From the NCBI GenBank assembly GCA_947589115.1, contig CANPZP010000016.1, positions 1 through 33,182 of the forward strand: a stretch of 33,182 bases of DNA, given 5' to 3'. Source of the stretch: Candidatus Gastranaerophilales bacterium (GTDB taxonomy: Bacteria > Cyanobacteriota > Vampirovibrionia > Gastranaerophilales > Gastranaerophilaceae). This document shows positions 32,749 to 33,182 of this stretch, one piece after another. The notes beneath the pieces are model-generated. The model made no database searches. It saw only the letters and a list, made by a program, of their open reading frames with translations, and had not been told where the DNA came from. The position numbers were made by a program, and so were the translations under genes. Positions within the stretch are counted from its first letter, which is position 1; each line of letters opens with the position of its first letter.

Positions 32749-32821
<73 letters not shown>

Positions 32822-32836
32822 ATTTTATATAATAAC

Positions 32837-33182
32837 TAATGGGCGTGTGGCACTGTGCCGAGAAAAACGATTAAGTATCGTTTTTCGAGAGGTGGTAGAC
32901 GCACCTCAGCCCGAAAGAAAATAGAACCTTAAAAAAATAATATCAAGCCTACAAGGGCTGATATTCATAGATTAATGGGCGTGTGGCACTGTGCCGAGAA
33001 AAACGATTGAGTATCGTTTTTCGAGAGGTGGTAGACGCACCTCAGCCCGAAAGAAATAGAACCTTAAAAAAATAATATCAAGCCTACAAGGGCTGATATT
33101 CATAAATTAATGGGCGTGTGGCACTGTGCCGAGAAAAACGATTGAGTATCGTTTTTCGAGAGGTGGTAGACGCACCTCAGCC
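32837..33182 (+). repeat. Tandem array of 135-136 bp units downstream of tRNA-Lys (runs off the window)
   Basis: Unit 1 is 32837-32972 (136 bp), unit 2 is 32973-33107 (135 bp) and unit 3 is 33108-33182, cut by the edge. The copies differ only in a hairpin loop (TAAGT or TGAGT), one A in a spacer A-run and one base before the next unit. No open frame is plausible. The number of copies beyond the window is unknown. The period is too long and the unit too structured for a CRISPR repeat. Confidence 0.95.
32841..32912 (+). ncRNA. Candidate structured RNA, first copy: 72-base four-armed fold
   Basis: GGGC (32841-32844) pairs with GCCC (32909-32912) and closes three hairpins: GGCA-CTG-TGCC (32849-32859), GAAAAACGAT-TAAGT-ATCGTTTTTC (32862-32886, 10 perfect pairs) and GAGGTG-GTAGACG-CACCTC (32889-32907). 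A separate hairpin with AATATC, AGCC, GGCT and GATATT follows at 32939-32965. The size and cloverleaf shape recall a tRNA, and the words GTGTGGC and TGGTAGACGCACCT recall the 5' part of tRNA-Leu. It lacks a T-loop, a 7-bp acceptor and CCA, so it is not a functional tRNA. Further copies start at 32977 and 33112. Family unknown; expression is inferred. Confidence 0.45.

Follow-up and report, generated by a model that had tools for sequence, protein, structure and literature searches.

The rtT repeats of Escherichia coli tyrT (RF00391) are arranged in tandem 3′ of tRNA-Tyr, and each of them contains a piece of the tRNA end; they are not known to share a mobile palindrome. The Rickettsia palindromic elements (RPE) are clade-specific palindromic insertions that have no known transposase and are known for their insertion into protein genes. 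The palindrome-associated elements of the IS200/IS605 type are small, non-autonomous stretches of hairpin DNA that insert without loss of the target sequence. REPs are imperfect palindromes of 20–40 bp, whose mobilisation by single-strand (Y1) transposases has been hypothesised and whose GTAG and CGTC tags define two superfamilies (PMC3733652).

The window, a stretch of 33,182 nucleotides from a Candidatus Gastranaerophilales genome (G000), is the entire contig C16, and its right end falls within a tandem array. The original observation of such an array was confirmed with TRF, which reports 2.6 copies with a period of 135 and 98% matches at 32837–33182. The array starts 15 bases past the end of tRNA-Lys(CTT), and its third copy is cut by the contig end. 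The units are 135–136 bp long and are built, in this order, from a tRNA 5′ end (GGGCGTGTGGC), a 41-bp palindromic element, a D-arm remnant (GGTAGACGCACC) and a spacer. The features of the region are as follows:

32749..32821, + strand: tRNA-Lys(CTT), the neighbour of the array and not its source (ARAGORN, Rfam)
32837..32972, + strand: unit 1, 136 bp (TRF and repeat search)
32973..33107, + strand: unit 2, 135 bp (TRF and repeat search)
33108..33182, + strand: unit 3, incomplete at the contig end (TRF)
32841..32851, again at 32977–32987 and 33112–33122, + strand: tRNA-Leu(UAG)-type 5′ end copy GGGCGTGTGGC, equal to the start of tRNA-Leu(UAG) in G368
32852..32892, + strand: palindromic element of unit 1, ACTGTGCCGAGAAAAACGATTAAGTATCGTTTTTCGAGAGG (R1 match at 32848–32892, 72.1 bits; covariation)
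32988..33028, + strand: palindromic element of unit 2 (R1 match at 32984–33028, 70.8 bits)
33123..33163, + strand: palindromic element of unit 3 (R1 match at 33119–33163, 70.8 bits)
32893..32905, also 33029–33041 and 33164–33176, + strand: tRNA-Leu D-arm remnant TGGTAGACGCACC after the element (the tRNA-Leu sequence beyond the replaced GAAAT, from related loci)
32938..32966, again in unit 2, + strand: unit-specific spacer hairpin AATATCAAGCC-TACAAG-GGCTGATATT (fold)

Fold prediction recovered both the four-armed fold and the separate hairpin that had been described for the unit. The 72-mer at 32841–32912 forms four arms (−30.8 kcal/mol, z −4.7, 0/200 shuffles), and the full unit, with its second hairpin, reaches z −5.7. 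The units differ by A/G in a loop, by a two-base deletion in the spacer and by one G/A in the spacer, which bears out the observation that the differences spare the stems. The four-armed unit stands as a fold of this locus; as a conserved trait of the family it does not, since only the central 41-bp palindrome is kept. The spacer hairpin is not conserved either: among the matches listed, the alignments from other genomes end within approximately the first 101 of the 138 query bases.

The first 11 bases of each unit, together with the D-arm that resumes past the hairpin, belong to a tRNA-Leu class. The tRNA-Leu(UAG) of the congener G368 (L012), which comes after one such unit, begins with exactly these 11 bases. 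The start of tRNA-Lys, GGACTTGTAGC, differs from the units, and tRNA-Lys was rejected as the source of the repeat. Judged from the sequence, tRNA-Leu is most likely the tRNA copied in the array of the window. Inspection of all long, Leu-sized tRNA matches revealed no tRNA-Leu(UAG) in the assembly of the window; the Leu isoacceptors UAA, CAG, CAA and GAG are present in this genome. Since the units match tRNA-Leu(UAG) and the UAG gene is missing from the assembly, the array is interpreted as running up to a tRNA-Leu(UAG) gene that was not assembled. An intact tRNA-Leu(UAG) would then lie just beyond the right edge as the missing partner. tRNA-Lys is a bystander to the array. A function shared by tRNA-Lys and the units found no support; what the units reproduce is the 5′ part of another tRNA.

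The 41-bp palindrome, hereafter the element, consists of ACTsTGCCGA, a hairpin stem-loop with the conserved apical loop TRAGT, and (C)GAGAGG. The covariance model R1 was built from 35 distinct cores of 43–49 bases each. The hairpin covaries, with 97.6% of the cells paired and 37 double-change cells, a value as high as which was obtained in 0/500 shuffles; the cores are possibly related by descent. Compensatory changes in distant copies, which had been set beforehand as a test of the proposal, are thus present. Such covariation of the stem can originate from selection on RNA, from selection on single-stranded DNA or from palindrome correction. One copy (L097, 1693) has its hairpin tip inverted with respect to its feet.

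A DNA search gave matches in 309 of the 383 genomes of the family to which the window belongs. Of 240 genomes of the class, the model R1 matched 143, of which 138 belong to the same family, one to a sister family and four, with weak matches, to another. The copy number per genome ranges from none detected to 75, and the four genomes that were counted fully contain 8 to 75 copies (75 in G047, 37 in G141). The contigs found in an exact-pattern scan of GTDB are labelled Candidatus Gastranaerophilales or Cyanobacteria MAGs, or are unlabelled gut MAGs; a few carry other labels, such as Clostridia and Heliobacteriaceae, given here as deposited. No match was obtained from the phage and plasmid collections or from pattern scans of IMG/VR. 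In Rfam, tRNA was the only match of the array region above the gathering threshold, nothing relevant appeared at E ≤ 10 and rtT (RF00391) was not matched, which agrees with the earlier impression that the repeat belongs to no described family. The literature yielded nothing relevant on this repeat or on tRNA repeats of Gastranaerophilales. The element apparently represents an undescribed, order-specific palindromic family of the REP/MITE-like kind.

The context of the element was surveyed in 14 genomes of 14 genera and in the loci of the window's own genome, and 123 hits were placed. Eighty of the 123 are located upstream of an intact tRNA on the same strand, 10 adjoin a tRNA 3′ end in antisense orientation, 7 lie on the far side of the nearest tRNA and 26 have no tRNA within reach. 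The neighbouring tRNAs in this survey include Leu (five isoacceptors), Met, Pro (three), Lys, Ile, Val, Ala and Thr. In the GTDB sample, Phe, Glu, Gln, Cys and His also occur as the closest tRNA. The flank before the element is usually a copy of the end of that same tRNA with its outer flank, and units copying the end of their own neighbour were seen for Leu, Met, Lys, Thr, Pro, Ile, Val and Ala. Of 228 distinct contexts, which are not independent of each other, 214 have the element pointing toward the tRNA body; in 174 of these it shares the strand of the tRNA and in 40 it lies on the other strand. The same polarity was found in 74 of 77 cases of the GTDB sample, a separate exact-pattern scan that shares many species with the main set. 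Some of the exceptions, that of the window among them, are arrays whose sequence breaks off ahead of the tRNA. Within tRNA genes the element was seen only in partial duplicate copies; an intact tRNA therefore remains on the side that the element faces. The motif TTGA(A/C)AATTNAATA (TTGA(A/C)AA(T/C)TNAATA) stands directly upstream of units or intact tRNAs in 75 of 82 occurrences at tRNA-linked loci. With one mismatch allowed, it precedes 52 of 93 tRNAs that have the element upstream, versus 8 of 47 that do not.

Comparison of the intact tRNA with the element-bearing copy within the same locus shows that the element takes the place of GGAA, GAAAT, GCAGC, GCACC, GTAT or GGAG, and of longer forms of these. 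GGAC is a further replaced segment in the comparison of empty sites as a whole. Over all sequence compared, an empty counterpart exists for 62 flank pairs. The replaced segment mostly measures 4–6 bases and starts with G-N-A in 50 of the 62, although tRNAs dominate these pairs, so that the GNAN rule amounts to about ten independent contexts. The replacement of a short, mostly GNAN, segment is common to tRNA and non-tRNA contexts. The region downstream of rpmJ provides an example of the latter. It holds a plain spacer in G075, G121 and G140, a GGATT repeat containing GC|GTAG|TG in G009, and the element in place of the GTAG in G047. This comparison, made between species and not between strains, identifies the element as a nested insertion that one species has and its congeners lack.

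Many copies of the element have no tRNA nearby. The copies read in G047 and G141 are mostly dispersed within other intergenic repeats, and the hosts away from tRNAs include a composite repeat of G047, GGATT...AATCC repeats, GTCATCCTGAGC repeats and apparent terminator hairpins. In L164 (553, TTCGGGATGG followed by the element), and likewise in L102 (115), the element lies within a partial antisense copy of what we take, from its sequence, to be 5S rRNA.

The duplication of tRNA ends may be a step separate from the insertion of the element or coupled to it. In the genome of the window, tRNA-Arg(ACG) (L263, G000:C10:6400-7200) is preceded by a 5′ partial copy of approximately 44 bases without the element, which shows that partial duplication of a tRNA end can exist without it. 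Another type of hairpin insert, AAGGACTCC...GGAGAG, which has a comparable loop of the TTAAGTA type, occupies the same tRNA position in L106 (minus strand, ~603) and in L149 (from 426 onward); in the array of L149 it alternates with the element. At the opposite end of tRNAs, 3′ ends from the T-loop onward are repeated approximately 100–200 bases downstream of the tRNA without the element, similar to the rtT repeats of E. coli:

L029 1700–1860; L048 2048–2180; L060 1844–2030; L030 2053–2201: tRNA 3′-end repeats without the element

We propose, with reasonable but not full confidence, that the array arose beside a tRNA by tandem amplification of a shortened tRNA-Leu 5′ end carrying a mobile palindromic element in its D-loop. 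The link to mobile elements that was suggested at the outset is supported by the polarity, the empty sites and the nested insertion. The element would be a non-autonomous, REP/MITE-like insertion of the Gastranaerophilales, which would prefer sites of the form ...GC|GNAN|... and replace about four bases. Transposition may proceed via an intermediate in the form of a single-stranded hairpin, on which an enzyme provided in trans would act. The units would probably multiply by recombination between their long direct repeats, and unequal recombination may shift their number. The partial tandem tRNA copy is not obviously the product of a single insertion event.

Alternatively, the palindrome-bearing copies of tRNA ends might be kept for a function, as structured decoys (RNA folds or DNA cruciforms) outside the gene that control tRNA output or shield the tRNA from integrating elements. 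We regard this as unlikely. The array can be explained without small RNAs or decoys, and a reading of this kind is less likely than a mobile element.

It is also rather improbable that the units represent a structured RNA family, either tRNA leaders and trailers or small RNAs, that is co-transcribed with the tRNA and acts in the processing, folding or attenuation of its transcript. The conserved TRAGT loop and the covarying stem could reflect selection on RNA. The position of the element ahead of tRNAs in the majority of the family's genomes, the motif directly upstream of units or intact tRNAs, and the presence after the element of a strand able to pair with the copied tRNA end in the Leu(CAG), Leu(GAG), Met, Lys and Pro(GGG) units are in line with such a role. 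However, this closing stem is weak or missing in the Leu(UAG), Pro(CGG/UGG), Val and Ile units, and the closing-stem test, which rests on the class means free of sentinel energies and on individual examples, gave a mixed result. A conserved four-arm fold with an acceptor-like closing stem, as expected of a tRNA-like small RNA, was not found across the tRNA classes. The four-arm fold was rejected as the conserved unit, because the closing stem occurs only with some tRNA species and the element hairpin alone is general. Against an RNA gene also speak the 40 of 228 contexts in which the element is antisense to the tRNA with its polarity toward the tRNA body unchanged, the many copies without a nearby tRNA and the wide span of the copy number. 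The antisense copies and those in intergenic repeats and in the 5S-like sequence fit insertion at the DNA level better than an RNA gene, and leave the predicted array of small RNAs or processing units unsupported. A T-box or tRNA-leader riboswitch was set aside on the antisense and non-tRNA copies.

The size, the palindrome and the intergenic spread of the element resemble those of REPs, which raises the question of whether it is a typical REP mobilised by a RAYT (REP-associated tyrosine transposase, Y1). Genes matching PF01797 (Y1) occur in 9 of 14 high-copy versus 2 of 15 low-copy genomes, in groups that were hand-picked from the R1 survey, without correction for phylogeny and with G000 not counted; G000 itself has no PF01797 gene. 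The element was found near the Y1 gene in only 3 of the 20 loci fetched, and the Y1 genes examined closely are flanked by another palindrome, of the GTAG type, GTAGGGTGCAATTTATTGCACC or similar. Furthermore, the element has no terminal GTAG or CGTC tag, its termini being ACTsTGCC and GAGAGG (alignments A2 and A4). No transposase at the inspected Y1 loci could be tied to the element. RAYT, although enriched in high-copy genomes, was rejected as its own transposase on the grounds that the Y1 loci carry other palindromes, and mobilisation as a typical REP is very unlikely. The Y1 genes and the GTAGGGTGCAATTTATTGCACC-type palindromes form a REP system of their own within this clade. In L223, L228, L232, L234 and L238, such RAYT-like Y1 genes, bordered by palindromes such as GTAGGGTGCAATTTATTGCACC, are located near tRNAs.

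Repeated integration of mini-circles with a tRNA end by a site-specific integrase, giving tandem units and a restored tRNA, would account for the Campbell-type architecture, in which direct repeats of flank and tRNA end bracket each unit and the intact tRNA stands at the inner end, but it appears very unlikely. The D-arm resumes after the element within the unit, which places the element inside the tRNA-end copy and not between copies; away from tRNAs, too, the element replaces an equally short segment; and a partial tRNA copy without the element exists.

Under the proposed insertion of a mobile palindrome, the family occupies, on one strand or the other, duplicated end pieces of essential tRNA genes, with a GNAN tetranucleotide swapped out. 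It offers a tractable case for studying the movement of very small palindromes without a recognised transposase, and its arrays help to explain assembly breaks at tRNA genes in some of these gut bacteria. Similar to the rtT repeats, the tandem units of the window adjoin a tRNA, and each contains a piece of a tRNA end. With the RPEs, compared here by description only, the element shares the character of a clade-specific palindrome, but it resides in tRNA-end copies and other repeats. Unlike the palindrome-associated elements of IS200/IS605, it replaces about four bases, and no paired left and right end was seen. In contrast to the REP/RAYT system, it has no dedicated transposase that we could find, replaces about four bases and keeps a fixed polarity in partial tRNA ends. 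Like the REPs, the element is an imperfect palindrome with many, mostly intergenic copies that also forms tandem clusters together with its flanking DNA.
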